A stretch of DNA of 64,000 nt from Longimicrobium sp. (GTDB lineage Bacteria > Gemmatimonadota > Gemmatimonadetes > Longimicrobiales > Longimicrobiaceae). The stretch's first letter is position 1. Every line of letters starts with the position of its first letter. Location: assembly GCF_035474595.1 (NCBI RefSeq), contig NZ_DATIND010000121.1:1-64000 (forward strand), in the 5' to 3' direction. This document shows positions 3,048 to 55,104 of the stretch, piece after piece. Position numbers and translations under genes: made by a program. The notes beneath the pieces are model-generated. The model was not told the DNA's origin and did no database searches. It worked only from the letters and a program-made list of their open reading frames with translations.

Positions 3048-3095
3048 AGTCCGCGAAGGCGGACTTCGGGCCGTTGTTGCCGCGAATTCATTCGC
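3048..3095 (-). repeat. Double-hairpin dispersed repeat, copy A
   Basis: Read on the minus strand: hairpin 1 GCGAAT-GA-ATTCGC, linker GGCAACAACGGCCCGA, hairpin 2 AGTCCGC-CTTC-GCGGACT. Both stems are perfect (6 and 7 bp). It lies between divergent ispF and thiolase. It is one of nine copies in the window with the same layout and linker but different stems. Confidence 0.85.
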
Positions 3096-3241
3096 CCCTC
3101 CCGCCTCGCATCCAGCCGCGAGGGCAGGAACTCGCCCACAGAATACCCTCCGGCGCGCCCCGTCGCCAATCTCCATCCCCGTGTCATCCAATCCCCATCC
3201 CCTGCCCTTGCCGTTGGGGTTGCGGATGATTAGCATTGAAC

Positions 3242-3257
3242 GAGACCGAACGGTCTC
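3242..3257. promoter_or_regulatory. Palindromic operator-like site upstream of the thiolase
   Basis: GAGACCG-AA-CGGTCTC is a perfect 7-bp inverted repeat with a 2-bp spacer, in a locally AT-richer stretch 38 bp before the thiolase start. Symmetry and spacing fit a TetR-family operator, a regulator class that often controls fatty-acid catabolism genes. No TetR gene lies in the window, so the partner is unknown. Confidence 0.55.
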
Positions 3258-3294
3258 TAACGCGGATTCGACGTGATCGCACGGGGAGGCGAGG

Positions 3295-4530
3295 ATGGCG
3301 GAGGCCTACATCATCGACGCGGTGCGAACGCCGCGCGGGCGGGGGAAGAAGGGGAAGGGCTCGCTGACGGAGATCCACCCGCAGGAGCTGCTGGCGCAGA
3401 CGCTGAACTGCCTGGCCGAGCGCGGCGGCATCGAGCGCGGCCAGGTGGAAGACGTGGTGGTGGGCGTGGTCAGCCAGGTGGGCGAGCAGGGCGGCAACAT
3501 CGCCCGCAACGCCGTGCTGGCCGCCGGTTGGCCCATCGAGGTGCCGGGCGTGTCGCTGAACCGCTTCTGCGGCAGCGGCCTGCAGGCGGTGAACTTCGCC
3601 GCCATGGGGGTGATGAGCGGGATGCACGAGCTGGTGGTGGGCGGCGGCGTGGAAAGCATGTCGCGCGTGCCCATGGGCTCGGACCAGTCGGGCTCCGACG
3701 GCCACAACCCGCTGCTGGCCGCGAAGCACTTCCAGGTGCCGCAGGGGATCAGCGCCGACCTGATCGCCACGCTCGAGGGCTTCACCCGCGAGGAGCTGGA
3801 CCGCTTCGCGCTCGAGTCGCAGCAGAAGGCCGCGGTGGCGCAGCGCGAGAATCGCTTCGCGCGCAGCCTCTTCCCCGTGGTCGATCCCGTCACCCGGCAG
3901 GTGGCGCTGGACCACGACGAGTACCCGCGCCCCGAGACCACGATGGAGGCGCTGTCGCAGCTGCAGCCCGCGTTCGCGGAGCTGGGCGCCAAGCCGGTGG
4001 GGCCGAACGGCGAGACGATGGACGAGATGGCGCTGCGCATCTACCCGCAGGCCGGGCAAATGAAGCACCAGCACACCGCGGGCAACTCCAGCGGCATCGT
4101 GGACGGGGCCGCGGCCGTGCTCCTGGCGTCGGACGGCTACGTGAGGTCGCACGGCCTGAAGGCGCGCGCCCGCATCCGCGCCATCTCCACCCACGGCGAG
4201 GAGCCGCTGATCATGCTCACCGCCCCGGCCGAGACGGCGCGCAAGGCATTGCGCAAGGCGGGGATGGAGGTGGGCGACATCGACCTGTGGGAGATCAACG
4301 AGGCGTTCGCCACGGTGCCGCTGCAGACCATCCGCACGCTCGGCGTGGACCCGGCGCGGGTGAACGTGAACGGCGGCGCCATCGCCCTCGGCCACCCGCT
4401 GGGCGCCACCGGGGCCATGCTGCTGGGCACCGCGCTGGACGAGCTGGAGCGGCGCGGCCTGGCCACGGCGCTGGTCACGCTGTGCATCGCGGGCGGCCAG
4501 GGCGTGGCGACGATCATCGAGCGAGTCTGA
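3295..4530 (+). CDS. Acetyl-CoA C-acyltransferase (thiolase)
   Basis: A 411-residue thiolase. The nucleophile is C92 (NRFCGSG), and the catalytic H367 (GHPLGATG) and C397 (LCIAGGQG) are in place. It catalyses the thiolytic last step of beta-oxidation or the reverse Claisen condensation of acyl-CoAs. The start is ATG 3295 behind GGGGAGGCGAGG. A hotdog thioesterase follows 130 bp later on the same strand, past a repeat hairpin, suggesting a shared acyl-CoA context. Degradative (FadA/FadI) and biosynthetic (PhaA) types were not separated. The upstream 3242-3257 palindrome is a likely control site. Confidence 0.93.
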
Positions 4531-4534
4531 GGGA

Positions 4535-4630
4535 AAGTCCTAAGTCCTAAGTGCTAAGTGCTAAGTCCTGAGTGACATGGGATTTCCTAGCTGTTCCCAC
4601 TCAGGACTTGGGACTCAGGACTCAGGACTT
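4535..4630. repeat. Inverted pair of 7-bp tandem repeats
   Basis: Positions 4535-4576 hold six heptads of the form AAGTCCT/AAGTGCT/GAGTGAC. Positions 4599-4630 hold the complementary heptads ACTCAGG/ACTTGGG. The two arms can pair over about 30 bp across a 22-bp loop. It may terminate the thiolase transcript or be a simple-sequence expansion. Related heptads occur at 36549-36581. Confidence 0.75.
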
Positions 4631-4662
4631 CTTTTTCTGCTATTCACCCCGGGGTGAGAACG

Positions 4663-5160
4663 ATGCCGACCGATACGCTTCGCGAACGCACCTTCGCGTG
4701 GGGCGACCCGCTGGTGGGCGCCCGCGCCGCGCCGTCGATGAGCGGGATGGAGTACCTGCGCGCGATGATGCGCGGCGAGTTCCCTCCCCCGCCCGTCGCC
4801 ATGACGCTGGGCTTTACGCTGGACGAGGTGGACGACGGGCGCGCCGTGTTCGGGATGGAGCCCGCCGAGTTCCACTACAACCCCATCGGGATGGTGCACG
4901 GCGGCGTGGCGGCCACGCTGATGGACTCGGCGATGGGGTGCGCCGTGCACACGCGCCTTCCCGCGGGCGTGGGCTACACCACGCTGGAGATGAAGATCAA
5001 CCTGCTGCGCGCCATCACGCTGGACACCGGCCCGGTGGCGTGCGAGGGAACGCTCATCCATCTCGGCCGCACCACCGCGCTCGCCGAGGCCCGCATCACC
5101 GACGCCGCGGGACGGCTTCTGGCGCACGCCACGAGCACCTGCCTGATCGTGCGGCCGTAG
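4663..5160 (+). CDS. PaaI-family hotdog thioesterase
   Basis: A 165-residue single-hotdog protein. The signature HYNPIGMVHGGVAATLMDSA near residues 70-90 includes the HGG-x(9)-D pattern used for acyl-CoA hydrolysis in this family. The start ATG 4663 is preceded by GGGGTGAG; an in-frame GTG lies 9 bp upstream. The substrate cannot be read from sequence. The neighbouring thiolase suggests CoA-thioester turnover. Confidence 0.85.
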   Translation: MPTDTLRERTFAWGDPLVGARAAPSMSGMEYLRAMMRGEFPPPPVAMTLGFTLDEVDDGRAVFGMEPAEFHYNPIGMVHGGVAATLMDSAMGCAVHTRLPAGVGYTTLEMKINLLRAITLDTGPVACEGTLIHLGRTTALAEARITDAAGRLLAHATSTCLIVRP

Positions 5161-5385
5161 CGCCGGCCGGCCCCGCGTCCGCGGTACACAGCCTCCCCAT
5201 CGATGCCGGCGCGCCGACCGGCTGGCGCTGGACGTGCCCCGACGCGGCGGCGCGGGCGGCGATGCGGCCGCCGCTGGACGGCGCGGCATCTCCCCTGCTC
5301 CGCCGCGGCTCTTTCGCGCGCCGCTCCGCGCCCGCATTATCACCGCCTTCCAAAACCACTTAAGCCGGATGGGCAGGAGGGCATC

Positions 5386-7281
5386 ATCGCCAGCAAGTGG
5401 ACCATCGACGACTCCCGCGAGCTGTACAACATCGAGGGCTGGGGGATCGGCTATTTCGGCGTGAACGAGCGCGGGCACGTGACCGTTCACCCCACCAAGG
5501 ATGAGTCGCGCGGGATCGACCTGTACGAGTTCGCGGTGGACATGGAGGCGCAGGGGGTGGGATTGCCGCTCCTGCTGCGCTTTTCCGACATCCTGCGCAC
5601 CCGCGTGCAGACGCTGTCCGAGAAGTTCGCCAACGCGATCCAGGAGTTCGGCTACCAGGGGCAGTACACCACCGTGTACCCCATCAAGGTGAACCAGCAG
5701 CGCCACGTGGTGGAGGAGATCGCCGAGTACGGGCGTCCCTACGGCGTGGGGCTGGAGGTGGGAAGCAAGCCGGAGCTGATGGCGGTGCTGGCGCTCAGCG
5801 AGCGCACCGACCACCTGATCGTCTGCAACGGCTACAAGGACGAGGAGTACGTGCGGCTGGCGCTGATGGGGCAGCGGCTGGGGCACAACGTGCTGATCGT
5901 GATCGAGAAGATCAGCGAGGTCGACACCATCCTGCGCGTGGCCGCCGAGATGGAGCTGGAGCCCACCGTGGGCGTGCGCATCAAGCTCTCCACCGCCGGG
6001 GCGGGAAAGTGGAGCGAGAGCGCGGGGGAGAAGAGCAAGTTCGGCCTCAACTCGGCGCAGCTGGTGAAGGTGCTGGACAAGCTCAAGTCGGCCGGCAAGC
6101 TGGGCATCCTGAAGCTGATCCACTTCCACCTGGGCTCGCAGATCCCCGACATCCGCAACATCAAGCTGGGGATGGCGGAGGTGTCGCGGTACTACGTGGA
6201 GCTGCGCCAGCTGGGGGTGGACGTGCAGTACGTGGACGTGGGCGGCGGCCTCGGCGTGGACTACGACGGCTCGCGCTCGGTGACGCCGGGGAGCGTGAAC
6301 TACTCCATCCAGGAGTACGCCAACGACATCATCTACTCGCTGGCCGAGGCGAGCCGCGAGAACGAGGTGCCGATGCCGCACGTGATCAGCGAGAGCGGGC
6401 GTGCGCTGACGGCGCACCACGCGCTGCTGCTGATCAACGTCATCGACCTGGAGACGCAGGCCCCCGACCCGATGGAGGACGTGGGCGACGACGAGCACCC
6501 GCTGGTGCTGGAGCTGGCGGCCACCTACCGCGAGGTGGACCACCGCAACCTGCGCGAGGTGTACCACGACGCCGCGTTCGCGAAGGAGCAGACGCAGAGC
6601 CACTTCAACTCGGGGGCGATGACGCTGCGCGAGCGGGCGGCGGCCGAGCGCTTCTGGCTGGCGATCATGAACCGCGTGGCCGTCCTGGCCGCGCAGGACC
6701 CGGAGGAGTACGACGACATCCTCCCCGAGCTGGAGGCGGTGCTGATCGACCGCTACTTCTGCAACTTCTCGCTCTTCCAGTCGCTGCCCGACTCGTGGGC
6801 CATCGACCAGCTCTTCCCCATCATGCCCATCCACCGGCTGGACGAGGAGCCCAGCCGGCGGGGGACGCTGCAGGACATGACCTGCGACAGCGACGGGAAG
6901 ATCGACCACTTCACCGGGTGGCGGAAGTCCAAGCCCAGCCTGGAGCTGCACGCATTCGACCCCGCGCAGCCGTACATCCTGGGGATCTTCCTCACCGGCG
7001 CGTACCAGGAGATCCTGGGCGACCTGCACAACCTGTTCGGCGACACCAACGCCGTGCACGTGCGGCTGGCCGACCACGGCTACGAGATCGGCGACATGGT
7101 GCACGGCGACACCGTGACCGAGGTGCTGAACTACGTGCAGTTCAACGCGCCGGACCTCGTCGCCACCTTCCGCCGCAAGGTGCAGAACGCCAAGCTGAAG
7201 CGCGCCGAGGCGAACACCTTCATCGCCGACTACGTGGCCGGGCTGGACGGATACACGTACCTCGAGGGCGACTGGGACTGA
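5386..7281 (+). CDS. speA: Biosynthetic arginine decarboxylase
   Basis: About 631 residues of a fold-III PLP arginine decarboxylase (arginine to agmatine, polyamine synthesis). The PLP lysine is K101 in VYPIKVNQQ, the Gly-rich phosphate loop is DVGGGLGVDYDG, and the second active-site motif is MTCDSDGKID. Protein-like sequence begins at ASKWTIDDSRELYN. No ATG, GTG or TTG occurs in frame between 5203 and that point, but AGGAGG sits 5 bp before ATC 5386, so an ATC start is proposed. The alternative ATG 5203 adds 61 Arg/Pro-rich residues with no ribosome site. Confidence 0.9.
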   Translation: MASKWTIDDSRELYNIEGWGIGYFGVNERGHVTVHPTKDESRGIDLYEFAVDMEAQGVGLPLLLRFSDILRTRVQTLSEKFANAIQEFGYQGQYTTVYPIKVNQQRHVVEEIAEYGRPYGVGLEVGSKPELMAVLALSERTDHLIVCNGYKDEEYVRLALMGQRLGHNVLIVIEKISEVDTILRVAAEMELEPTVGVRIKLSTAGAGKWSESAGEKSKFGLNSAQLVKVLDKLKSAGKLGILKLIHFHLGSQIPDIRNIKLGMAEVSRYYVELRQLGVDVQYVDVGGGLGVDYDGSRSVTPGSVNYSIQEYANDIIYSLAEASRENEVPMPHVISESGRALTAHHALLLINVIDLETQAPDPMEDVGDDEHPLVLELAATYREVDHRNLREVYHDAAFAKEQTQSHFNSGAMTLRERAAAERFWLAIMNRVAVLAAQDPEEYDDILPELEAVLIDRYFCNFSLFQSLPDSWAIDQLFPIMPIHRLDEEPSRRGTLQDMTCDSDGKIDHFTGWRKSKPSLELHAFDPAQPYILGIFLTGAYQEILGDLHNLFGDTNAVHVRLADHGYEIGDMVHGDTVTEVLNYVQFNAPDLVATFRRKVQNAKLKRAEANTFIADYVAGLDGYTYLEGDWD

Positions 7282-7286
7282 ACCGA

Positions 7287-7540
7287 AGTACGAAAGTACG
7301 GAGAGTACGAGAGTACGGAACTGCATGGGCTCGTCGCGCCCGATGGCTCTGCGGGCGATCCCAAACCACGTTGATCTCACGCGGAGACGCGGAGACGCAG
7401 AGAACTCACCGCGCCACCGAGTTCTCCGCGACTCCGCGTCTCCGCGTGAGATCCCACGGTGTCCGCGACGTGAGAGGAAGCCGTGAGATCGCGATGAGCG
7501 TCATACTTCCGTACTCCCGTACCTTCGTACTTCCGTTCCG
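7287..7540. repeat. Nested inverted repeats with 8-bp arrays
   Basis: The outer arms are octamer arrays of the AGTACGAA/AGTACGGA type at 7287-7319, with their inverse at 7503-7540. Inside, 7373-7453 is a long hairpin with arms GATCTCACGCGGAGACGCGG and its near complement, containing repeated GGAGACGC. The 349 bp between speA and the TM2-like gene holds nothing else. It may end the speA transcript. Confidence 0.7.
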
Positions 7541-7630
7541 CTGAAACTTCCTGCGCGGCACCGCCGTATCTCCCCACACGAGATGCGACTGCGTGCATCC
7601 GAACCACCGTCCCCCGACCTGAGCAGAACG

Positions 7631-7855
7631 ATGGCGAGCTATCGCAATCCCGGCACGGCCGCGGTCCTGAGCCTGCTGATCCCCGGTCTGGGGCAGCTGT
7701 ACAACGGCAAGATCCTGCGCGGCATCCTCTGGTTCATCGTCGCGGTGCTGAACACCGCGGTGTGGGTGTTCTCGCTCGGCACCCTGGGGTGGATCATCCA
7801 CGCCCTGTCCGCCTGGGGCGCGTACAACTACGCCAAGAAGCACCCGTACGCCTGA
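7631..7855 (+). CDS. Small TM2-like membrane protein
   Basis: A 74-residue protein with two hydrophobic helices. The first carries LSLLIPGLGQLYNGK, the Gly-rich plus GQLYNGK turn typical of TM2-like and related small membrane domains; the second is FIVAVLNTAVWVFSLG. Function is unknown. ATG 7631 was preferred over 7583 because the added 16 residues are polar and unlike the family. A strong hairpin follows at 7881-7908. Confidence 0.75.
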   Translation: MASYRNPGTAAVLSLLIPGLGQLYNGKILRGILWFIVAVLNTAVWVFSLGTLGWIIHALSAWGAYNYAKKHPYA

Positions 7856-7880
7856 GCTTCGCGGGTCGGAGAACGGAAGA

Positions 7881-7908
7881 CGGGGCGCGCCGGCGATGGC
7901 GCGCCCCG
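7881..7908 (+). terminator. Hairpin terminator after the TM2-like gene
   Basis: The 11-bp perfect stem CGGGGCGCGCC/GGCGCGCCCCG with a 6-nt loop ends 3 bp before CGTTTATTG. The T-tract is weak but the position is right. Confidence 0.65.
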
Positions 7909-8026
7909 CTCGTTTATTGTGACCGTTGCATTCCTATTTACGACATATAAGATGGAATAGATCGTGCGGGATTATCCCTGCCCTGATCTCATCTTCCGAT
8001 TTTCACCTGGCTGATGGAGGTGCGCA

Positions 8027-8422
8027 GTGCGTGGACGTCTCTGGATCCTGATTCCGCTCGCCGCCGTGGCTACGGCGTGCGCCGACGCGACGGCTCCGGC
8101 CGCGCGCATGCCCGAACACGCCGTTCCGCGCGCGACGCTCGGGGCGGGCTACGACATCGTCGCGCAGAGCATCATTCCGGCGGGCGCGACCTGCGGGCAC
8201 TATGCGACCTACGACGGGATGCCCGTCTACGGGCTGGACTGGGAGGTCGACGGGGTGCTGGTGGCGCAGGACGTGGACGGGATCAACTACACCAACAGCG
8301 GCTCGGCGTACACGGTGTCGATCGGCGACTGGGATGGGAGCGCGTTCACGACCTACTACTCGGAAACCTTCTACCCGCAGCAGAGGAACAACATGGCCTG
8401 CCTCCAGCTCTCTCCGGAGTAG
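8027..8422 (+). CDS. Exported lipoprotein, unknown function
   Basis: A 131-residue protein with a lipoprotein signal (positive start, hydrophobic ILIPLAAVAT, lipobox TAC at about residue 18). The mature part is short and beta-rich with few charges: a GLDWEVDG segment, a Tyr/Thr-rich stretch and a lone Cys pair (about C57 and C125). No family was recognised. GTG 8027 follows GGAGGTGC. The upstream 100 bp is AT-rich, with TATAAG at 7946-7951 as a possible -10. A perfect 14-bp hairpin follows. Confidence 0.75.
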   Translation: MRGRLWILIPLAAVATACADATAPAARMPEHAVPRATLGAGYDIVAQSIIPAGATCGHYATYDGMPVYGLDWEVDGVLVAQDVDGINYTNSGSAYTVSIGDWDGSAFTTYYSETFYPQQRNNMACLQLSPE

Positions 8423-8462
8423 GCGGAGCCTCGTCGCGCGGGGAAGCGCTGCAGGAAGCCAA

Positions 8463-8497
8463 AGCGAGAGGGCGCGTCCACCACGCGCCCTCTCGCT
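8463..8497. terminator. Bidirectional hairpin terminator
   Basis: The 14-bp perfect stem AGCGAGAGGGCGCG/CGCGCCCTCTCGCT lies between the convergent lipoprotein gene and nrnA. Confidence 0.75.
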
Positions 8498-8520
8498 TGT
8501 CGTGACTCTGGAAGCCGCCT

Positions 8521-9561
8521 TCAGCCCCGGGGGCCGCCGGAACCGTGCAGCGTCTCGTGCACCGAGGCGATGACGGGGGGCGCCACCTTGTCGGCGGGGC
8601 CGTCCACCAGCGCGCCGGCCGCCTTCACGTGCCCGCCGCCGCCGAACTTGCGCGCCATCCGGTTCACGTCGGCGTGGCCGTTGGAGCGGAAGGAGATCTT
8701 CGTCTTCCCCTCCTCCGTCTCGCGGAACAGGAGCGCCACCTCGGTGCCGGCGATGGAGCGCGCGTGCTCGATCAGCCCGTCGAAGTCCTCGCCGTCGGCG
8801 TTCAGCCGGTCGGCCGTCTCGCGCGTGACGATCATCCACGCCAGCCCCACCTCTTCGTCGAAGCGAAGGGTGCTGAGCGCCTCGCGCAGCAGCTCCAGCC
8901 GCCGCAGCGGCGCCGTGGCGAAAAGGCGGCGGTACACCACCTCGGGGTCGATCCCCCGCCCCAGCAGGTCAGCGGCCACGGCGTGCACGCGCGGCGTGGT
9001 GTTGCTGTAGCGGAACGAGCCCGTGTCGCTGACCATGGCCACGTACGCACCCAGCGCCGAGGCCGCCGGCACCTCACCGCCGGTGACGCGGATCAGGTCG
9101 TACACCATCTCGCCGGTGGCGGCCGCGCTGGGGTCCTGCACGGCGGTGTCGCCCACCACCTCGCGGCCGGCGGGGTGATGGTCCACCACCAGCGTGCGCT
9201 CGCGCGGCAGGCGCGGGGCCAGGTCGCCCACGCGCTGCGGCTCGGCCGTGTCCAGCACCAGGAAGAGGTCGGCCGCGTCGATCGCGGCGTCGGCGTCGGC
9301 GGTGCCCAGCTCGGCGACCACGTCCTGGCGGTGGAGAAGGAAGCGGAAGGTCTGCGGGAACTCGGTGGGGTTGACGATGGTGGCCTCGACCCCGTTCTCC
9401 TCCAGCCACGCGGCGGCCGCCGCCTCGGAGCCGCACCCGTCGCCGTCGGCGTTCACGTGCGTGGTGAGGACGACGCGGCGCACGCCCAGCAGGCGCTGCG
9501 CCACGCGGCGCAGCGTGAACGAGCGCGAGTCGGGCACGTCCAGCAGACCAGCGTTGGGCAT
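8521..9561 (-). CDS. nrnA: Bifunctional oligoribonuclease / PAP phosphatase NrnA (DHH-DHHA1)
   Basis: A 346-residue DHH-superfamily phosphoesterase. The N-terminal DHH domain has HVNADGDGCGSE (near 35-46) and VVDHHPAG (near 123-130), the manganese sites. The C-terminal DHHA1 domain ends with the GGGGHVKAAGA substrate loop. NrnA proteins degrade nanoRNAs to mononucleotides and dephosphorylate pAp, which suits a genome without orn. It is transcribed alone, and a 611-bp region separates it from the divergent permease. Confidence 0.92.
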   Translation of the reverse strand: MPNAGLLDVPDSRSFTLRRVAQRLLGVRRVVLTTHVNADGDGCGSEAAAAAWLEENGVEATIVNPTEFPQTFRFLLHRQDVVAELGTADADAAIDAADLFLVLDTAEPQRVGDLAPRLPRERTLVVDHHPAGREVVGDTAVQDPSAAATGEMVYDLIRVTGGEVPAASALGAYVAMVSDTGSFRYSNTTPRVHAVAADLLGRGIDPEVVYRRLFATAPLRRLELLREALSTLRFDEEVGLAWMIVTRETADRLNADGEDFDGLIEHARSIAGTEVALLFRETEEGKTKISFRSNGHADVNRMARKFGGGGHVKAAGALVDGPADKVAPPVIASVHETLHGSGGPRG

Positions 9562-26628: not shown

Positions 26629-26676
26629 AGTCCGCGAAGGCGGACTTCGGGCCGATGTTGCCGCGAATTCATTCGC
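26629..26676 (-). repeat. Double-hairpin dispersed repeat, copy B
   Basis: Minus strand: GCGAAT-GA-ATTCGC, linker GGCAACATCGGCCCGA, AGTCCGC-CTTC-GCGGACT. It is nearly identical to copy A at 3048-3095 and is placed between thiS and thiG, hence transcribed within the operon. Confidence 0.85.
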
Positions 26677-29763: not shown

Positions 29764-29813
29764 GTCCCGGAGGGACGTTGTGCCGTTGTTGCCCGGGATT
29801 TCCAATCCCGGGC
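29764..29813 (-). repeat. Double-hairpin dispersed repeat, copy C
   Basis: Minus strand: hairpin 1 GCCCGGGATT-GGA-AATCCCGGGC (10 bp), linker AACAACGGCACAAC, hairpin 2 GTCCC-TCC-GGGAC. The stems differ completely from copies A and B, but the linker is retained. Confidence 0.85.
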
Positions 29814-36507: not shown

Positions 36508-36581
36508 GTGCGAAAGTGCGAAAGTGCGAGAGTGCGAAAGTGTTTACCACTTGGCACTTGGGACTTTGGACTCAGGACTTC
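36508..36581. repeat. Octamer and heptamer repeat arrays
   Basis: 36508-36542 holds four octamers of GTGCGAAA/GTGCGAGA; 36549-36581 holds five heptads (ACTTGGC, ACTTGGG, ACTTTGG, ACTCAGG, ACTTCAG). The heptads match those at 4599-4630. They fill the 97-bp gap before the Lrp-like gene. Confidence 0.8.
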
Positions 36582-37846: not shown

Positions 37847-37894
37847 GCGAGTGAACTCGCGGCTACAACGGCACGCAGTCCGCCTTCGCGGACT
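37847..37894 (+). repeat. Double-hairpin dispersed repeat, copy D
   Basis: GCGAGT-GA-ACTCGC, linker GGCTACAACGGCACGC, AGTCCGC-CTTC-GCGGACT. Compared with copies A and B, G-C replaces A-T at the same stem position on both sides (GCGAGT/ACTCGC against GCGAAT/ATTCGC). Confidence 0.88.
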
Positions 37895-37912
37895 TCATCT
37901 CGGCGATGGTTC

Positions 37913-37942
37913 CGCACTCTCGCACCTTCGCACTTTCGCACC
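37913..37942. repeat. Octamer array (inverse of the GTGCGAAA type)
   Basis: CGCACTCT/CGCACCTT/CGCACTTT/CGCACC units; complementary to arrays at 36508 and 45873. It ends 4 bp before the next start codon. Confidence 0.75.
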
Positions 37943-41676: not shown

Positions 41677-41993
41677 GACGTCATCCTGAGTCGAACACCG
41701 CGCTTCGCGCGACCACGATGGTGAAAGGGGAGGCATCCTCCGGCGCTGGAACTGGCTTCCGAGCTGAACAGCCTCGCGCAGTTTGCGAGGCTTCCCGTAG
41801 TTGTTGCTGCGACTTCAGTCGCCGGTGAGGGGCTAGTCCGCGAACTTTCGATTCAGGCCGACCACACCGTCGGTGGCCCCGCACGGGATTGGTGCATCCG
41901 ACCAACTCACGTGCTGCCACGCCCACAGATCCTTCGGCCTGCAAAGTGTTGTTCTGATGCGAGTTGCGGTGTGGTCGGCCTCAGGATGACGTC
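41677..41993. mobile_element. MITE-like element with perfect 14-bp terminal inverted repeats
   Basis: GACGTCATCCTGAG at 41677-41690 and its exact complement CTCAGGATGACGTC at 41980-41993 bound 317 bp with no coding capacity. Inside lie double-hairpin copy E and the second GATCCTTCGGCCTGCA block (41928-41993). No clear target duplication was found, so mobility is uncertain. Confidence 0.5.
41771..41822 (-). repeat. Double-hairpin dispersed repeat, copy E
   Basis: Minus strand: GCGACT-GA-AGTCGC, linker AGCAACAACTACGGGAA, GCCTCGC-AAACTGC-GCGAGGC. Third distinct stem pair with the ACAAC linker retained. Confidence 0.8.
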
Positions 41994-46005: not shown

Positions 46006-46446
46006 CTACACCCCCAACCCCAACTGATCGCTCGGTGGAGATTGGGATTCGCCGTCAGCCCCAGCCTCCTCCCCCGCCGGCGGCGGGGGCGCGGCGCGGT
46101 CCTGCTCGGCGATCCAGCGGGCGATGACGGAGACGACGTAGCGGCGCTCGTCCTCCGTCAGCTCGCGGCCCTTGGGGATGCGGTGCCACTTGGCCAGGCA
46201 GCCGCGGCAGCAGGTGCCGGTGGCGTGCTGCGCGAGGAAGACGGGGTGCCCGCGCATCGGCGTCTGCCTGCCGTCGTTGGGCGGCCCGGCGGGAGCGAGG
46301 CGCGCGGCGATCATCTCGTCGGCGTGGCGCAGGACCGTGTCCATGCCGCGGCGGCGCAGGTAGGACAGGTCGTCGCCGCGCAGGCGGAACCTGCGCCGGA
46401 AGGCGGAGCCCGCCAGCCGCGCGAAAACGTCGTCCAGATTACCCAC
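46006..46446 (-). CDS. DUF4186 protein
   Basis: 146 residues matching DUF4186: RRRFRLRGDDLSYLRRRG at the start, ARLAPAGPPNDGRQTPMRGH, then PVFLAQHATGTCCRGCLAKW, with conserved Cys and His that look metal-binding. The tail is Pro/Gly-rich. The GTG 46446 start gives the family N-terminus. It is 7 bp after a membrane protein gene. Biochemical role is unknown. Confidence 0.88.
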   Translation of the reverse strand: MGNLDDVFARLAGSAFRRRFRLRGDDLSYLRRRGMDTVLRHADEMIAARLAPAGPPNDGRQTPMRGHPVFLAQHATGTCCRGCLAKWHRIPKGRELTEDERRYVVSVIARWIAEQDRAAPPPPAGEEAGADGESQSPPSDQLGLGV

Positions 46447-46453
46447 CTGCGCG

Positions 46454-46942: not shown

Positions 46943-47041
46943 TCGAAACGTCCTTTCGCGGGATGGAGTAGGAACCGGCTCACCTTCTCCCATTGAATAC
47001 CCCGGCTCCCGCTCCCCGTCCCCGGGATCGTTCCTCCAGAT

Positions 47042-48055: not shown

Positions 48056-48146
48056 CGGTTCGCACGGGGAAAAAGGGTCGCGCGCCGGAGCGGAGGGCCC
48101 TGGCGCGCGAAAGGTAAGCGGCGGCGCGAGATGCGACCAGCGGCCC

Positions 48147-48575: not shown

Positions 48576-48605
48576 CTCGTCCCTCGGGGAAGGCGGTGGG
48601 CCGGC

Positions 48606-49031: not shown

Positions 49032-49177
49032 CGGATCCAGCTCACGGTGGGGTGAAGTCGGGTTCGACGTGGTTCAAACGTGCGGCGGAGGCGGTTCGTG
49101 ACGCCCGCCCGGCCCGCGCCTTGCCTCGCCTCCGCACTTCGTGGCGATTGTCGAACGCTGAACAAGGAGACGGAAAG

Positions 49178-49735
49178 ATGCCGGGACGGCTGCAGGGAAA
49201 GAAGGTGGCGATCCTGATCACCGACGGGTTCGAGCAGGTGGAGATGACCGAGCCGCGGAAGGCGCTGCAGGACGAGGGCGCCGAGACGGTGATCGTATCG
49301 CCGAAGGACGGCAGCGTGAAGGGGTGGCAGCACACCGACTGGGGCGACGAGTTCCCGGTGGACCGCCCGCTCTCCGGCGCGCGGGCGGACGACTTCGACG
49401 CGCTTCTCCTGCCCGGCGGGGTGATGAACCCCGACCACCTGCGGCAGGAGGCGGTGGAGTTCGTGCGCGACTTCTTCCAGGCGCACAAGCCGGTGGCCGC
49501 CATCTGCCACGGCCCGTGGATGCTGGCCGAGGCGGGCGTGGTGGAGGGGCGCAGGGTCACCTCGTTCCCGTCGATCCAGACGGACCTGAAGAACGCGGGC
49601 GCCGACTGGGTGGACCAGGAGGTGGTGACGGACCACGGCCTGGTCACCAGCCGCAAGCCGGACGACATCCCCGCCTTCAACCGAAAGATGGTGGAGGAGT
49701 TCGCCGAGGGCCGCCACGACCGCCAGCGCGCCTGA
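49178..49735 (+). CDS. DJ-1/PfpI-family protein (type 1 glutamine amidotransferase fold)
   Basis: A 185-residue PfpI. The nucleophile elbow AICHGPWML (Cys with adjacent His) and Glu of TDGFEQVE complete the family site; LPGGVMNPDHLR is the conserved loop. Members act as glyoxalase III/deglycases or peptidases under stress. ATG 49178 follows AAGGAGACGG. Monocistronic, with a hairpin downstream. Confidence 0.92.
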   Translation: MPGRLQGKKVAILITDGFEQVEMTEPRKALQDEGAETVIVSPKDGSVKGWQHTDWGDEFPVDRPLSGARADDFDALLLPGGVMNPDHLRQEAVEFVRDFFQAHKPVAAICHGPWMLAEAGVVEGRRVTSFPSIQTDLKNAGADWVDQEVVTDHGLVTSRKPDDIPAFNRKMVEEFAEGRHDRQRA

Positions 49736-49753
49736 GGGAAAATCTCACGCAGG

Positions 49754-49794
49754 GAAGCGGAGGAGCCGGGAAGAAGCCTCGCCTCCTCCGCTTC
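49754..49794 (+). terminator. Hairpin after the pfpI-type gene
   Basis: Stem GAAGCGGAGGAG/CTCCTCCGCTTC (12 bp) with a 17-nt loop. Confidence 0.65.
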
Positions 49795-49899
49795 TCCGCA
49801 ATGCTTGGCGAAATCCATCTTCGGTTTTCATTTGGTATGGATCGTGCGTAAAGTCTTCTGCGAGAACGGGATAGAAGGGATTCTCACAGGAGTCGAACG

Positions 49900-50118
49900 A
49901 TGACCGACAAGCGCACGGCCGAGCAGACCGAAGGCAACATGATCAAGGACCCGGACAACTGGGTCACGGGCGACGAGCCGATGACGGGCGCCCAGCGCTC
50001 GTATCTCCACACCCTCGCCGAAGAGGCGGGCGAGGAGATCGGCGACGACGAGCTGACCAAGGCCGAGGCGTCGAAGAAGATCGACGAGCTGCAGGAGAAG
50101 ACGGGGCGCGGCGTCTGA
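49900..50118 (+). CDS. DUF3072 protein
   Basis: 72 residues. The DUF3072 block is unmistakable: IKDPDNWVTGDEPMTGAQRS, then YLHTLAEEAGEEI and KAEASKKIDELQEKTGRG. Highly charged, soluble and helical. Role unknown; such proteins resemble small stress or SAP-like modules. ATG 49900 follows CAGGAGTCG. Confidence 0.85.
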   Translation: MTDKRTAEQTEGNMIKDPDNWVTGDEPMTGAQRSYLHTLAEEAGEEIGDDELTKAEASKKIDELQEKTGRGV

Positions 50119-50377
50119 TCCGCGGGACGGCAGGAGTCGGCGGAGTCGGACGGAGGAAGTTCTCCGCTGACTCCGCCGGCTCCGTTCGGCCCCGCCTCTT
50201 CCGAATCCATCGCCCGGTTCGTCCACGCCGTGGCGCACGCGCCGAAACTGCTTATATTTACGCTCACGGAAGGGCATCCCCCGTTCTTCCAGCCAATCCA
50301 GAGTAGCTGCGCAACTTCTTCCGCCGCACCCTCGTAGTCCCGCTCGCCCGGGAAGCGCCCGGGCAAGGACCTCACGG

Positions 50378-51136
50378 ATGGACTTCTATCTCTTCTCGCT
50401 CCTGCTGGGCTTCGCCGGGCTGCTGGTAATGGCCGTGAGCGGCGTGGCCGGAAACAGCGGGCACCACGGCGGCCACGCCAACGGCGGCGGCCACCTGCAC
50501 GCGGGCGGCCACCACGGCGACGTGAACGTGCACGGCGTCGGCGGCCACGGCGTCACCACCGGCCACGCGGGCGCGCACGTGGGCGGCCACGACGCCGGCC
50601 ACGCCATCGCGCACGGGCATGGCCACGGCCACGCGCAGCACCACGGCGACCACGCGCACGCGGGCGACGCCGGGAAGGCGCTGGGGACCTGGTTCCTCTC
50701 CTTCCTCTCCCCGCGCGTGCTGTTCAGCATCCTGGTCGGCCTGGGCGCCGCGGGGCTGCTGCTGGCGGCGTTCCTTCCCGAGCCGCTGCTGGCCGTGGCC
50801 GCGGTGGCGGGCGGGCTGGTGTTCGAGCTGTTCGCGGTGCGGCCGGTGTGGAACTTCTTCTTCCGCTTCGGCAGCGAGCCCGCGCTCACGCTGGAGAGCG
50901 CCATCACCGACACCGCCCTGGCCGTCACCGGCTTCAACCACGACGGCGAGGGGCTGGTGAAGATCGAGCTGGACGGGCAGATCGTGCAGGTGCTGGGACG
51001 GCTTTCCCCCGCGGACCGCGCGACCGGGATCCGCGTGCGCGCGGGAGACAGCCTGGTGGTGGAAGAAGTCGATCCCGTGCGGAACCGCTGCGTCGTTTCA
51101 CTCCCCGTTTCGGCGGGGCAATCCAGCGGCGCCTGA
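50378..51136 (+). CDS. NfeD-like membrane protein with His-rich segment
   Basis: 252 residues. Helix 1 (about 3-24) is followed by a stretch with 21 histidines between H29 and H94 (GHAIAHGHGHGHAQHHGDH type), two or three helices (103-165), then a soluble OB-like NfeD domain (about 185-245: GLVKIELDGQIVQVLGRLSP, VEEVDPVRNRCVVSL). NfeD proteins pair with flotillin-like SPFH proteins, as here 26 bp downstream. The His-rich part, probably metal-binding, is not typical of NfeD. Confidence 0.85.
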   Translation: MDFYLFSLLLGFAGLLVMAVSGVAGNSGHHGGHANGGGHLHAGGHHGDVNVHGVGGHGVTTGHAGAHVGGHDAGHAIAHGHGHGHAQHHGDHAHAGDAGKALGTWFLSFLSPRVLFSILVGLGAAGLLLAAFLPEPLLAVAAVAGGLVFELFAVRPVWNFFFRFGSEPALTLESAITDTALAVTGFNHDGEGLVKIELDGQIVQVLGRLSPADRATGIRVRAGDSLVVEEVDPVRNRCVVSLPVSAGQSSGA

Positions 51137-51161
51137 GCGCGCCGCCCACCCCGGAGGACCG

Positions 51162-52508
51162 ATGGACTCGAACCTGATCTGGACGGCCATCATCGTTCTG
51201 TTCGCCGTATTCGTGCTCATCCCCATGACGGTCAGCGCGTTCCTGCGCAACGTCGAGGCGGGCACCATCCGCCTGGTGAGCTGGCTCACGGGCCGCACCT
51301 TCATCTACCGCGGCCCCGGCAAGAGCAAGGAGGTGCCGCTCTTCACCACCGGCACCACCATCTCCAGCAAGGCCATCAACGTAGACCTGGACATCACCGA
51401 CCAGACGGCCGACCTGGACGAGAACGGCGTGCCGCAGCCCATCAAGGTGCGCGTGCTGGCCAGCGCCATCGTGTCGGTGGGCGACAGCGACGCGATGATC
51501 AAGACGGCGGCCAACCGCTTCTTCCCCAAGCCGCAGGAAGAGCAGATCAACATCCTGATCGACCTGCTGAGCTCGTCGGGGCGCCGGGCCATCAACCTGC
51601 TGACGCACGACCAGCTGTTCTCGGCCAAGACGGCGCCGCGCATCTCGGCGGCCGCGCAGACGGCGCTGGCGGAGCGCGAGTCGCAGCACGTGGCGCTGGT
51701 GCAGACGCCCGCCCCCGGCAGCCCGCTGGAGGAGGACGACGACCCGCTGGCCATCATCATCCGCAAGGCGTGCAGCCGCGAGCTGACGGACCTGGGGCTC
51801 AGCTTCAACTCGCTGAACATCAAGGTGGTGCAGAGCGAGGTGGCCGAGGCGCGGCGCCGGCAGAGCGCGGCCGAGGCGCAGGCCAACTCCGACATCGTGG
51901 CGGCGCAGCAGGCGCGGCGCGCCAAGGACGCGGCGCTCGAGGCGGAGCGCAACATCAGCGACAAGCAGCGCGAGCTGGAGCAGACGCGCGCGGCCAACGC
52001 GGCGCTGATCGCGCAGGCCGAGGCCAAGAAGCAGGAGGCGCTGGCCACGCAGCGCATCGCCGAGCTCGAGGCCACGCAGATCGCGCAGGCCCGCGCCGAC
52101 GCCGAGAAGGTGCGCATCGAGGCCGAGGCGGCCGCGCGCGCCGAGGCCATCCGCATCACCACCGTGGCGCAGGCCACCGCGGAGAGCATCCGCAAGGTGA
52201 ACGAGGCCATCCAGCAGGGCGGCGAGGCGTACTTCCGCTACCGGCAGATCGAGATGCTGCCGGAGATCGCCCCGGCGATCGCCGAGGCGCTGTCGAACGC
52301 GCGCCTGGTGACGATCAGCGCCGGTGGCGGCGAGGGCGGCGCGCCGGACGCCACCGCGGGGAACATCACCAGCGTGATCCAGACGGTGCTGGCCGCGCAG
52401 CTGGTGTCCCGGACCGGCATTCTGGACGGCGAGCCGCAGGGGAGCGACGGCGCGCGACGCATCCCCGTCCCCGCCGTGACCCTGCCGGGCGGCCGCACCA
52501 ACGGGTGA
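51162..52508 (+). CDS. Flotillin-like SPFH-domain protein
   Basis: 448 residues: N-terminal membrane segment (IWTAIIVLFAVFVLIPMTVS), an SPFH domain (about 30-220) and a long Ala/Glu/Arg coiled coil (about 225-350) of flotillin type (AEARRRQSAAEAQANSDIVA, QAEAKKQEALATQRIAELEA). It oligomerises in the membrane and organises protein-lipid domains. ATG 51162 follows CGGAGGACC. It forms an operon with the NfeD-like gene. Confidence 0.92.
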   Translation: MDSNLIWTAIIVLFAVFVLIPMTVSAFLRNVEAGTIRLVSWLTGRTFIYRGPGKSKEVPLFTTGTTISSKAINVDLDITDQTADLDENGVPQPIKVRVLASAIVSVGDSDAMIKTAANRFFPKPQEEQINILIDLLSSSGRRAINLLTHDQLFSAKTAPRISAAAQTALAERESQHVALVQTPAPGSPLEEDDDPLAIIIRKACSRELTDLGLSFNSLNIKVVQSEVAEARRRQSAAEAQANSDIVAAQQARRAKDAALEAERNISDKQRELEQTRAANAALIAQAEAKKQEALATQRIAELEATQIAQARADAEKVRIEAEAAARAEAIRITTVAQATAESIRKVNEAIQQGGEAYFRYRQIEMLPEIAPAIAEALSNARLVTISAGGGEGGAPDATAGNITSVIQTVLAAQLVSRTGILDGEPQGSDGARRIPVPAVTLPGGRTNG

Positions 52509-52554
52509 TCGCGATCGGGATCCGGATGGATCGGGATCGGATCGGTGGATGAAG

Positions 52555-52591
52555 AGCCGGGGCGTCGCGCAGGTGCGGCGCCCCGGCTTTG
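52555..52591 (+). terminator. Rho-independent terminator after the flotillin gene
   Basis: Stem AGCCGGGGCG/CGCCCCGGCT (10 bp), 14-nt loop, then TTGC. Confidence 0.75.
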
Positions 52592-52600
52592 CTTGCTCCG

Positions 52601-52650
52601 CCGCCGAATGGAATTCGGCGGCAACAACTGCACAAAGTCCCTGCGGGACT
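52601..52650 (+). repeat. Double-hairpin dispersed repeat, copy F
   Basis: CCGCCGAAT-GGA pairs with ATTCGGCGG (9-bp stem), linker CAACAACTGCACAA, then AGTCCC-TGC-GGGACT. It forms an inverted pair with copy G 130 bp away. Confidence 0.85.
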
Positions 52651-52782
52651 GCGGGCCGGCATCCCGGCTTTCCGAAAACATCTCCGCGCCACCAGTTCCC
52701 GCTCCCCCGCGGAGCGGGTGGAGGGAATACCGGGGTCGCGGTCCTGCGAAGATGCTTCGGAGGAGAGCAGATAGCGCCTGGC

Positions 52783-52827
52783 AGTCCCGCAGGGACTTTG
52801 TGCTGTTGTTGCCGTGGCTTCAGCCGC
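52783..52827 (-). repeat. Double-hairpin dispersed repeat, copy G
   Basis: Minus strand: GGCT-GA-AGCC (with flanking GC pairs), linker CACGGCAACAACAGCACAA, AGTCCC-TGC-GGGACT. Hairpin 2 is identical to copy F, hairpin 1 is different. The rest of the 450-bp gap between the flotillin and the next gene holds only the sequence between F and G. Confidence 0.83.
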
Positions 52828-52959
52828 CCGGCCAGGGAGCGTGACCGCCGCACCGACCGCGCGGCTTCTGTCGGATGGCGGGCTGGCGCGGACGGATGGG
52901 CGCGGGTATCGTGGACGCGATCGCGGTGGCGCGCACGGAACCCACGGGAGCACAGGCAG

Positions 52960-53151
52960 ATGGCGAGCGAGTACGAGAAGGGCGGCAGCAGCAGGGCGAA
53001 GAAGGCGATGCAGACGGCGGCGCTGCTGGCGGGCGCGGCGGGGCTGCTGATGTTCATCGTGGGCGTGAAGCGCCGCTACAGCATGGACGAGCAGTTCGAG
53101 CTCGACCCCAGGCCCCGCGGCCGCGGCAAGCCGGGCGGCGACGCGAAGTAG
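52960..53151 (+). CDS. Small single-helix membrane protein
   Basis: 63 residues: a charged N-terminus (MASEYEKGGSSRAKKAMQ), one membrane helix (TAALLAGAAGLLMFIVGV) and an Arg/Pro-rich tail. No family recognised. Coding is supported by composition, a GGGAG ribosome site about 10 bp upstream and the terminator just after it. Confidence 0.6.
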   Translation: MASEYEKGGSSRAKKAMQTAALLAGAAGLLMFIVGVKRRYSMDEQFELDPRPRGRGKPGGDAK

Positions 53152-53176
53152 GCGTCAGCTTCGGAATGCCGGAGGC

Positions 53177-53210
53177 GAAGGGCCCGCGCTGAGGCGAGCG
53201 CGGGCCCTTC
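53177..53210. terminator. Bidirectional terminator
   Basis: The 14-bp perfect stem GAAGGGCCCGCGCT/AGCGCGGGCCCTTC with loop GAGGCG lies between convergent genes. Confidence 0.8.
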
Positions 53211-53234
53211 GTCATTCAGGCGCAGAGATGCGTT

Positions 53235-53870
53235 TCATTGCAGCCGCAGCTGGAGCTGCTGGATCTCGGAGGTGAGGCTGTCGTATCGCGCCTGGTCCGC
53301 CGCAGAGCCGTTCGTCTCCTGCGCGATCTGGTCGTCCAGCGAGCGGATCTGCGACCGGAGGTTCTTCGCCTGCGAGTCGGCCTGCACCAGCCTGTCCAGC
53401 ACACCCGCGATCTCGCTCCGGAAATCCGAGCTGAGCAGCGCAAGAGCGCACGCGATGGCTACGACTTTCGACACGTCCTTCACGTCCTGGGAGAACTCGT
53501 TGTCGTCGCTCACCGCCATCCCCGCGGCGCCCATGCACGCAACCGCGATCTTGTGGTCCATCAGGTAGGCGGCCACGTCGTTGTTCAGCGTCTCCAGCTC
53601 GTTCGACAGCTCCGAGGAGCTGCCGCGGAGCGACTGGATCCGCTGCTGATGGCCGTTCAGGCTGGTGAAGATCAGGTTACGCGACTGGCCGAGCTCTTCC
53701 ATCTGGGACTGTATGGCCGCGATCCGGGCCTGATGCTGTGCGATCTCCGCCTGGTGCGCGAGCTCGGCGGCGGACGATTGGCTGGAATCGGCCCGGAGCG
53801 ACTCGGCGTCCTGCGGGGCGCACCCGCCCACGGCAATGAGGATCCCCGCGAGGATGACTGGTTTCAGCAT
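53235..53870 (-). CDS. Coiled-coil lipoprotein, unknown function
   Basis: 211 residues; lipobox VGGC (C17). Most of the mature chain is predicted coiled coil: 30-105 (AHQAEIAQHQARIAAIQSQM, SSELSNELETLNNDV) and 160-210 (QAKNLRSQIRSLDDQIAQET, EIQQLQLRLQ), with a central hydrophobic helix (KVVAIACALALLSSDF). Codon use is less GC-biased than in the neighbours, suggesting a different history. ATG 53870 follows CGGGAG. Confidence 0.75.
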   Translation of the reverse strand: MLKPVILAGILIAVGGCAPQDAESLRADSSQSSAAELAHQAEIAQHQARIAAIQSQMEELGQSRNLIFTSLNGHQQRIQSLRGSSSELSNELETLNNDVAAYLMDHKIAVACMGAAGMAVSDDNEFSQDVKDVSKVVAIACALALLSSDFRSEIAGVLDRLVQADSQAKNLRSQIRSLDDQIAQETNGSAADQARYDSLTSEIQQLQLRLQ

Positions 53871-53998
53871 GCGGCATTCTCCCGAACGGGATGATCATGA
53901 AGACCGAAAATGAACTGCGCGAGAGAAGAGTTGCGTAAAACGCGTGTGGGATCAAGCAAACATGTGATCCCGCCCTGCAGCGATGCGATACGACGACA

Positions 53999-54022
53999 GG
54001 CCCGCAGCGATGTGCGCGGGCC
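53999..54022 (-). terminator. Hairpin downstream of the 54095 lipoprotein gene
   Basis: GGCCCGC/GCGGGCC (7 bp) around 10 nt; modest. Confidence 0.45.
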
Positions 54023-54046
54023 CTTCGTCATCCGTCCGATCCCTTC

Positions 54047-54079
54047 CCGTACTCTCGTACTTCCGCACTCTCGTACTCC
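54047..54079. repeat. Mixed octamer array (CGTACTCT/CGCACTCT)
   Basis: CCGTACTCTCGTACTTCCGCACTC-type units alternate GTAC and GCAC cores, linking the 7287-type and 36508-type arrays. It lies 16 bp past the 3' end of the lipoprotein gene at 54095. Confidence 0.7.
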
Positions 54080-54094
54080 GCGCGAAGCGCGGGC

Positions 54095-54691
54095 TCAGCT
54101 CACCCAGGTGGTGCGGCGCTGGACGATGCGCCAGCCGGCGGGGCCGCGCTCCAGCAGCACGATCTGCCCGTGCCCGCACAGCGCGCCGCAGTGCGAGCCG
54201 GTGACGATCACCGCGTGCCGGCGCTCGGCGTCGAAGCCGGGGCGCGACAGGGTGTGGAAGCTGGTCGCCGGCGCGTAGCGGCGCTGGAACTCGGCGTACT
54301 GCTCGCGCAGGTTGCCGTCGGGCGCGAAGACGGTGCGCGGCGCGAAGATGCGCAGCGTGGTGCCCGCGGGGATGGCGGCGGGGAGGAGCCACCCGGTGCC
54401 GTTCTTCTCGCGGTAGTCGGCGATGGCGCTCGCAGGGAACGCTGAGTCCAGCTCCACTACGAAGTTGCGGACCGCCTCCGCCTCCACGTGCGACACCGAG
54501 GTGCTGTCCGCGATGATGACGAACGGCTGCGCGGTGTCCGCCAGCACGCTGTCGATCACCGTCGCGTAGACGGCAAGCTCGTCGGCGTTCACGGGCGGCC
54601 CCGCGGGCGCGGGCGACGGCGCGGTTCCCGGGCACGCGGCCAGCACGAGCGCGGCGGGAAGCAGCGCGGCGATTCTCCTCTGCAGTCGCAT
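54095..54691 (-). CDS. Exported lipoprotein, unknown function
   Basis: 198 residues; LVLAAC lipobox (about C20) followed by a Pro/Ala linker. The mature domain has NADELAVYATVIDSVLADT, FVVELDSAFPASAIADYREK and ends with SHCGALCGHGQIVLLERG, where C-x3-C-x-H could be a small metal or disulfide site. No family recognised. ATG 54691 was preferred; upstream codons are His/Arg/Pro-rich noise. Confidence 0.72.
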   Translation of the reverse strand: MRLQRRIAALLPAALVLAACPGTAPSPAPAGPPVNADELAVYATVIDSVLADTAQPFVIIADSTSVSHVEAEAVRNFVVELDSAFPASAIADYREKNGTGWLLPAAIPAGTTLRIFAPRTVFAPDGNLREQYAEFQRRYAPATSFHTLSRPGFDAERRHAVIVTGSHCGALCGHGQIVLLERGPAGWRIVQRRTTWVS

Positions 54692-54917
54692 CGGATCGTG
54701 GGGCGAGGGATGGAGATGGGGCGAATGGCGGCAGCGGCGAGCAAGACGAAGCTGATCCCGATGCATCGGCGTCCCTGCTACCGATCGATTCACAGGATAC
54801 CATGCGCGACGCGGCGCCGCCAAGGACGGGGGGATGGGATGCGCTGATTCGGGCCGTCGAAGATCGAGTGAAATTCGGGGGATTCGGGAGTTTCGGGAGA
54901 TGTGGGTCGCGAAAAAT

Positions 54918-54966
54918 GCGAGTAAACTCGCGGCTACAACTGCACGCAGTCGCGCCTTCGCGGACT
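54918..54966 (+). repeat. Double-hairpin dispersed repeat, copy H
   Basis: GCGAGT-AA-ACTCGC, linker GGCTACAACTGCACGC, then AGTCGCGCCTTCGCGGACT, where one extra G bulges the second stem. Inverted relative to copy I 90 bp away. Confidence 0.83.
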
Positions 54967-55056
54967 TCCCCGCCCCGCCGTCCACGCCAATGCCCATGCA
55001 TCGCGATGGCGACGACGGATGCGGCGCACACCGGCGCCGATCACGCGACGAATCGA

Positions 55057-55104
55057 AGTCTGCGGAGACGGACTGTGTGCCTTTGTAGCCGCGAGTTCAC
55101 TCGC
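55057..55104 (-). repeat. Double-hairpin dispersed repeat, copy I
   Basis: Minus strand: GCGAGT-GA-ACTCGC, linker GGCTACAAAGGCACAC, AGTCCGTCTCCGCAGACT (stem with one wobble and one mismatch). It lies 26 bp beyond the truncated end of the beta-propeller remnant. The 440 bp between this remnant and the lipoprotein gene hold only copies H and I and unremarkable sequence. Confidence 0.83.

Follow-up and report, generated by a model that had tools for sequence, protein, structure and literature searches.

The question raised by a 64,000 nt stretch of DNA from Longimicrobium sp. (NCBI RefSeq assembly GCF_035474595.1, contig NZ_DATIND010000121.1, positions 1 to 64,000; hereafter the window) is what nine short elements within it, each consisting of two hairpins joined by a linker, might be. 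We consider it very likely that they are non-autonomous repeats, resembling repetitive extragenic palindromes (REPs) and REPINs, of an IS200-type Y1 HUH transposase with the motif Y---Q--HH. This transposase probably spreads the repeats which flank its gene. Copy number, stem covariation, conserved hairpin apices, inverted copies on both sides of the enzyme genes, joint occurrence of enzyme and repeat and copy differences between relatives were all observed and are presented in turn.

All nine copies were located at the positions given in a preliminary description of this DNA and share the plan proposed there. Read in the direction used in that description, hairpin 1 is followed by a 14-nt linker, approximately 2 further nt and then hairpin 2. 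The copies are as follows, on whole-window numbering and assigned to the subfamilies A to D defined below.

3048..3095, minus strand: copy 1, subfamily B; hairpin 2 at 3048-3065, linker at 3068-3081, hairpin 1 at 3082-3095.
26629..26676, minus strand: copy 2, subfamily B; hairpin 2 at 26629-26646, linker at 26649-26662, hairpin 1 at 26663-26676.
29764..29813, minus strand: copy 3, subfamily C; hairpin 2 at 29764-29776, linker at 29780-29793, hairpin 1 at 29791-29813, its 10-bp stem extending into the linker.
37847..37894, plus strand: copy 4, subfamily A; hairpin 1 at 37847-37860, linker at 37861-37874 with GTAG on the complement, hairpin 2 at 37877-37894.
41770..41822, minus strand: copy 5, subfamily D; hairpin 2 at 41770-41792 with the AGCCTCGC stem, linker at 41795-41808, hairpin 1 at 41809-41822.
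52600..52650, plus strand: copy 6, subfamily C, paired in inverted orientation with copy 7 (left arm); hairpin 1 at 52600-52622 with a 10-bp stem, linker at 52620-52633, hairpin 2 at 52636-52650.
52783..52827, minus strand: copy 7, subfamily C, inverted partner of copy 6 (right arm); hairpin 2 at 52783-52797, linker at 52800-52813, hairpin 1 at 52814-52827 with one mismatch.
54918..54966, plus strand: copy 8, subfamily A, paired in inverted orientation with copy 9 (left arm); hairpin 1 at 54918-54931, linker at 54932-54945, hairpin 2 at 54948-54966 with one extra base.
55057..55104, minus strand: copy 9, subfamily A, inverted partner of copy 8 (right arm); hairpin 2 at 55057-55074 with a mismatched pair, linker at 55077-55090, hairpin 1 at 55091-55104.

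The two inverted pairs are thus 52601/52783 and 54918/55057. Nearly all stems had been described as self-complementary; hairpin 1 was perfect in eight of the nine copies, the exception being the mismatch in copy 7, and hairpin 2 formed a perfect stem of at least 5 bp in seven of nine, copies 8 and 9 being the exceptions. A linker pattern allowing up to 2 mismatches matched 15 times in the window; shuffled sequence gave 2.63 matches on average, and none of 100 shuffles reached 15. Eight of these matches were named copies; the ninth copy (41771) has a different linker, AGCAACAACTACGG, and belongs to another subfamily, which also flanks the transposase gene TnpA L001. The linker, described as a single fixed sequence, is indeed conserved, but exists as several related linkers, one for each subfamily.

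The host genome comprises 6.57 Mb on 163 contigs. Searching all of it with a linker-plus-AGTC pattern (up to 3 mismatches) returned 635 matches compared to 200 for a reversed control pattern. A covariance model built from 25 copies gave at least 150 genome matches, these 25 included, all with E values of 1.7e-16 or better. The genome search for further copies which the preliminary description had proposed revealed a large family. Four subfamilies were read from the window together with 40 fetched stretches (0.84 Mb in total), most of which had been chosen for known copies or enzyme genes on the stretch or its contig. Subfamilies A (linker GGCTACAACGGCAC) and B (linker GGCAACAACGGCCC) both carry AGTCCGC in hairpin 2, subfamily C (linker GGCAACAACNGCAC) carries AGTCCC, and subfamily D, which includes window copy 41771, combines the linker AGCAACAACTACGG with hairpin 2 AGCCTCGC. 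The edges of subfamily A (34 copies) are sharp: conservation begins with GAAAAT ahead of hairpin 1 and ends with TC behind hairpin 2, spanning approximately 56 nt. A short tag in the linker reads GTAG in subfamily A, 2 nt from hairpin 1, and GTTG in B and C. In a few A or B copies (for example L040:16238-19596 and L055 at approximately 7160) hairpin 2 has a longer loop, CTTCGCGCCGCCTTC, an insertion which leaves the outer stem intact.

To obtain a sample unbiased for pairing, 112 copies were picked by linker and AGTCC only, ignoring hairpin 1. A perfect 6-7 bp hairpin 1 stem was present in 103 of them and a stem with one mismatch in four, compared to 0.1 perfect stems in shuffled upstream sequence; among the five others a few resemble chance matches to the linker. 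The 103 perfect copies contained 18 different innermost stems, which bears out the earlier statement that stem changes are compensated. Two alignments from this genome, each of one geometry and with at most one stem mismatch per copy, were then scored for covariation (25 A/B copies and 16 C copies). None of 500 shuffles reached the covariation score or the percentage paired in either set, the latter being inflated because copies had been picked for geometry and at most one stem mismatch. Of two weaker measures, further pair types were reached by 116 of 500 (A/B) and 49 of 500 (C) shuffles, and the number of pairs in which both sides had changed was reached by 2 (A/B) and 12 (C) of 500. The covarying changes were located in hairpin 1 in both alignments. 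A mixed alignment of 65 copies misregistered the hairpin 1 loops and was excluded from the pair counts.

Perfect stems of many sequences might also arise by mutation. Quasipalindrome correction is a known mutational route, and template switching could correct one palindrome arm to the other so that stems are perfect whatever their sequence. The scarcity of intermediates fits such a process, with one mismatch in only 4 of 112 copies and 6 of 684 stem cells unpaired. Hairpin 2 is equally palindromic, yet when copies were picked by linker and hairpin 1 only (selection by AGTCC overstates the constancy of hairpin 2) a stem of at least 5 bp was found in 113 of 126 copies, and these 113 contained essentially three stem types, AGTCCGC, AGTCCC and AGCCTCGC, against 18 for hairpin 1. 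In addition, the end of the hairpin 1 loop and its closing T-A pair (102 of 103 copies) are kept while the stem changes. We regard template switching as a doubtful explanation of the covariation, although it could still add to selection.

The loop of hairpin 1 always ended in A in the 103 perfect copies (GA in 67, GGA in 22, AA in 10, GAA in 3 and AGA in 1). Viewed on the strand bearing the tag (GTWG), the hairpin 1 apex reads T-T-C-A or T-T-T-A, or T-TCC-A in many C copies, and the hairpin 2 apex in subfamilies A-C is GNA or GNAG. GNA loops are unusually stable in DNA. Among 21 inverted pairs, selected less strictly than the 18 neighbouring pairs described below, the two arms had different hairpin 1 stems in 17, indicating that arms pair within a copy and not between copies.

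Copies were largely intergenic, 5 of 35 overlapping genes in the window and contig C46, where genes were called crudely by codon position (coding fraction 0.71). Flanking genes were tandem in 14 cases, convergent in 11 and divergent in 5, resembling the 90, 50 and 38 of all gaps. Intergenic position and two covarying hairpins would also suit structured RNAs, be they small RNAs, terminators or double hairpins that stabilise mRNA, with the covariation arising from selection on an RNA fold, and mRNA stabilisation by REP hairpins has been reported elsewhere (PMC12306157). Such a role is nevertheless very improbable as the explanation of this family: zero Rfam families matched in the window at the gathering threshold, gene orientations around copies resembled those of gaps in general, and the inverted copies around transposase genes (see below) would be left unexplained. 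Furthermore, G-U pairs were absent from the 262 hairpin 1 cells of the A/B and C alignments, consistent with a fold in DNA and not in RNA, although a G-T pair does exist in one copy outside these alignments.

Neighbouring copies within 350 nt of each other were arranged in inverted pairs with hairpin 1 outside in 18 cases, in tandem in one and in the opposite inverted arrangement in none, and about one third of 107 copies were paired. At L052:2726-3391 (G000:C44) an inverted double-hairpin pair is repeated three times in tandem with a spacing of approximately 255 bp. Comparison with a relative, G008, revealed differences in copy content. Copy 37847 is missing there, the flanking conserved stretches being approximately 56 nt apart compared to approximately 181 nt in the window, and at positions 46416 and 53598 G008 carries copies with no intact counterpart in the window. 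These differences reveal turnover or replacement of copies, but not the act of movement itself. The window pair at 52600-52827 occupies the same intergenic place as L178:1800-2010 of G008, which also holds an inverted pair. The stems and the types of hairpin 2 differ between the two, giving the appearance of a replacement or conversion in place. Between genes we also noted runs of an eight-base unit such as GTGCGAAA, in the window at approximately 36510-36541 and at 37909-37936 (beside copy 37847) and in G008:C132 at approximately 46260-46360, one run being longer in G008.

The search for an encoded partner, for which a RAYT (REP-associated tyrosine transposase) had been suggested as an example, led to a Y1 transposase flanked by the repeats, but one which is IS200-like and not a RAYT. 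Pfam Y1_Tnp had six matches in the host genome, and each of the six lies between two inverted copies whose hairpin 2 points to the gene and whose hairpin 1 points away from it. Subfamily A surrounds L005, B surrounds L004, C surrounds L002, L003 and the broken L006, and D surrounds L001, so that four repeat subfamilies match four enzyme types; in L003 and L006 one arm each deviates in hairpin 2. The five intact enzymes all match Pfam Y1_Tnp, share DHVH, WQ and Y---Q--HH, and pass the NCBI IS200 model; their RAYT-model scores do not exceed 30.3, the cut-off being 80. The RAYT motif by the tyrosine, NP(L/V)(R/K)xG (Nunvar et al. 2010, PMC2817692), is absent from these five enzymes, which have Y---Q--HH instead. 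The closest solved structures by sequence were ISDra2 TnpA and IS608 TnpA. Judged by sequence, the partner enzymes are predicted to be IS200-like Y1 transposases rather than RAYTs.

Several further features of these loci were recorded. The subfamily A transposase (L005:1165-1857, G000:C46) has a C-terminal Unstab_antitox domain (PF09720, TIGR02574), forming a 231-aa fusion of Y1 transposase and antitoxin-like domain. L003 and L006 (G000:C39) are transposase copies approximately 6 kb apart, one of which is interrupted by an internal stop and divided between two frames, yet has retained its inverted repeats. A plasmid search with the DNA around TnpA L002 (27 records) was set aside, as the 20 listed records matched solely outside the gene and were mostly annotated as hemL/aminotransferase.

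A profile of the five host enzymes found at least 520 relatives in named genomes, of which the best 80, some of them close relatives of each other, were kept. These came from Gemmatimonadota, Chloroflexota, Cyanobacteriota, Armatimonadota, Acidobacteriota, Planctomycetota and Bacteroidota. Y---Q--HH was present in 73 of the 80, and three of the seven without it are incomplete proteins. An FQEEF-like tail occurs in part of the relatives and is absent from the host genome's own proteins, which have a short C-terminus. We tested the flanks of 86 loci (these 80, chosen by protein alone, and the six host loci) for an inverted repeat with a score of at least 40 within 600 nt, using flanks 1200-1800 nt away as control. 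Inverted repeats flanked 66 of the 86 loci, and 49 had two or more perfect hairpins on both sides; each feature was seen at 1 of 66 control loci. Of 20 loci fetched from the same genus and family three were too short, and all 17 testable ones had inverted repeats; two of these are the host genome's own, two repeat L077 and L079, and 13 are neither own nor among the 80. A further 12 plasmid-borne Y1 enzymes were hand-picked from 173 records that matched. Flanking repeats with scores of 67 and 46 accompany the two that have Y---Q--HH, both from Bacteroidota; the ten IS200-type enzymes lacking this motif scored no higher than 32.

From 51 of the 80 loci we extracted 101 elements. The hairpin 1 apex was a selection criterion here and on its own proves nothing for this set. 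Hairpin 2 had 43 different stems with an apex of TNC or NTNC in 88 elements, and the linker measured 13-16 nt in 82 (search range 7-18). The linker tag was CTAC in 41, CAAC in 26 and neither in 36, two elements being counted twice, with some of the latter calls arising because the detected stem extends into the tag. A linker pattern derived from cyanobacterial flanks gave 25 to 266 matches in 12 of 13 cyanobacterial host genomes, with a control of 0. The pattern from an Acidobacteriota flank (L154) had 8 sites in its genome including the two flanks themselves, and high copy number is not established there. Among 41 genomes (the host and 40 relatives) enzyme and repeat were both present in 14, both absent in 25 and one alone in 2, counts which are not independent because of shared ancestry. 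All 82 aligned enzymes matched the IS200 model at E 0.001 or better. A tree of these 82 has few columns and no RAYT or IS608 outgroup and so cannot place the branching of the clade.

REPs, REPINs, RAYTs and REPtrons are established systems, and the small dispersed repeats of Nostoc, which Elhai et al. are said to have described in 2008, are reportedly also short, mobile and covarying in their stems, but only 21-27 nt long and with no transposase partner proposed. The preliminary description had contrasted the window elements with REP and REPIN elements, in which it took the palindrome to be conserved. This contrast is mistaken or at best incomplete, as published REP families too split into subfamilies by complementary stem changes (PMC3733652). 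Like those of REP/REPIN-RAYT systems, the present repeats lie in large numbers between genes, form inverted pairs and stand in inverted orientation on either side of a Y1 transposase gene; part of them have a GTAG-like tag next to a short perfect hairpin, and their stem subfamilies differ by complementary change.

The copies could then be ordinary REPs of a RAYT-like enzyme, hairpin 2 being a mere adjoining stem-loop as in the double palindromes of Pseudomonas. The GTAG tag of subfamily A, the TY loop, the inverted pairs and the REPtron layout all agree with this, both degenerate GTAG-1 units attached to other stem-loops and inverted repeats that are double palindromic have been described (PMC3733652), and 61 of the 82 enzymes matched the NCBI RAYT model at E 0.001 or better. 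We nevertheless find this unlikely. The five host enzymes fall short of the RAYT model and lack its motif (PMC2817692) but pass the IS200 model, which all 82 match, and the unit of two hairpins with a near-constant linker recurs across phyla. Differences from REP/REPIN-RAYT systems are the two hairpins per unit with a linker of approximately 16 nt, the IS200-like enzyme, and tags which may be GTAG or GTTG, or others in relatives.

Among the closest described enzymes are those of subclass 1.2 of the IS200/IS605 TnpA family, defined by Y---Q--HH (Quentin et al. 2018, PMC6006769). This subclass shares with the present enzymes HUH and Y---Q--HH, few gene copies per genome, and hosts among Cyanobacteria and Bacteroidota, and its signature (Y---Q--HH, DH[IV]H, WQ) is present in all five host enzymes. 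In the text and table of that study the subclass is generally without typical IS200 terminal structures and has a 'no' in the REP column, in contrast to the flanking inverted repeats and double hairpins at most of our 86 loci; it also has a specific C-terminal domain where the host proteins have a short C-terminus, so that they are candidate members of the subclass. Classical IS200/IS605 elements have end hairpins and no terminal inverted repeats, whereas the ends here are inverted copies of one element. TIRtrons/TIRYT (Di Nocera et al. 2013, PMC3733652) are Y1 genes flanked by inverted repeats, some double palindromic and some moderately abundant. They resemble the present system in these inverted-repeat-flanked transposases, in double palindromes and in Acidobacteria hosts; a conserved two-hairpin linker does not appear in the portion of the description considered, and as the comparison was by text and not by sequences the two may overlap. 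A REP-like repeat of Planktothrix (PMC4766695, PMC9366434) was rejected as a candidate since the direct repeats printed there are unlike the double-hairpin element. In open-licence literature, judged by titles and the beginnings of abstracts, the double-hairpin element was not described.

If the copies are repeats of this IS200-type transposase, the element would move from a strand exposed as single-stranded DNA, as at the replication fork. The strand hairpin 2 - GTGCNGTTGTWGCC - hairpin 1 (subfamily A; the others differ slightly) would fold into two hairpins, and an enzyme dimer may bind both by their apices, T-TN(N)-A in hairpin 1 and GNA or GNAG in hairpin 2. The linker including the GTWG tag may serve as a recognition or guide sequence for choosing the cut, and the enzyme would cleave beside the element and rejoin it elsewhere. 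Stems would be required to pair, with their sequence hardly read by the enzyme, so that stem 1 could drift by compensated changes. With Marinomonas REP cleaved in vitro, swapping the whole stem had a moderate effect, a mismatch was serious and the loop T-T-N-A was essential (Corneloup et al. 2021, PMC8266576); the hairpin 1 apex and its 2-nt distance to GTAG found here match the features that mattered there.

A number of observations weigh against this account. GTTG abolished cleavage in a Stenotrophomonas RAYT system (PMC8266576), which together with GTTG in subfamilies B and C argues against simply carrying over the RAYT mechanism, and GTAG is not universal given the other tags in relatives. 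Binding, cleavage, the guide role of GTWG, the replication-fork step and transposition are steps which we infer. A base-precise empty site was not found, the G008 flanks being too diverged for breakpoints. The G-T pair in stem 1 mentioned above lies in a copy in L052, outside the aligned sets, and is one of the four one-mismatch copies. Among the 86 loci, 20 had no inverted repeat with a score of at least 40, and the strict signature of apex plus tag was present on both sides of 36 and on at least one side of 53 (0 and 1 of 66 in the control). The cyanobacterial-flank pattern had zero matches in the 13th cyanobacterial host genome and in seven genomes of other phyla. The two discordant genomes are G010 (72% complete), with repeats and no detected enzyme, and G025, with the enzyme and no double-hairpin repeat. 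Finally, the RAYT-model matches of the 61 enzymes reached an E value of 2.1e-9.

The pairing of enzyme and repeat in the manner of REPs was known already; probably new here are double-hairpin repeats for Y---Q--HH enzymes, for whose subclass none are listed (Quentin et al. 2018). We see an even chance that this represents a second REP system, separate from RAYTs, in which an IS200-type HUH transposase spreads two-hairpin elements and two apices at near-fixed spacing are recognised with the stem sequence left free, in at least Gemmatimonadota, Chloroflexota, Cyanobacteriota, Armatimonadota, Acidobacteriota and Planctomycetota. If so, an enzyme subclass described without repeats would gain a function, and the system could stand midway between insertion sequences and REPs. 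The origin of REPs from IS200-like transposons is an open question, one made testable by a clade with its own double-hairpin repeats. These repeats are present in high copy in Gemmatimonadota and Cyanobacteria. Natural covariation across so many copies would document which changes the enzyme tolerates, and annotators would be able to name repeats which at present pass as anonymous hairpins.

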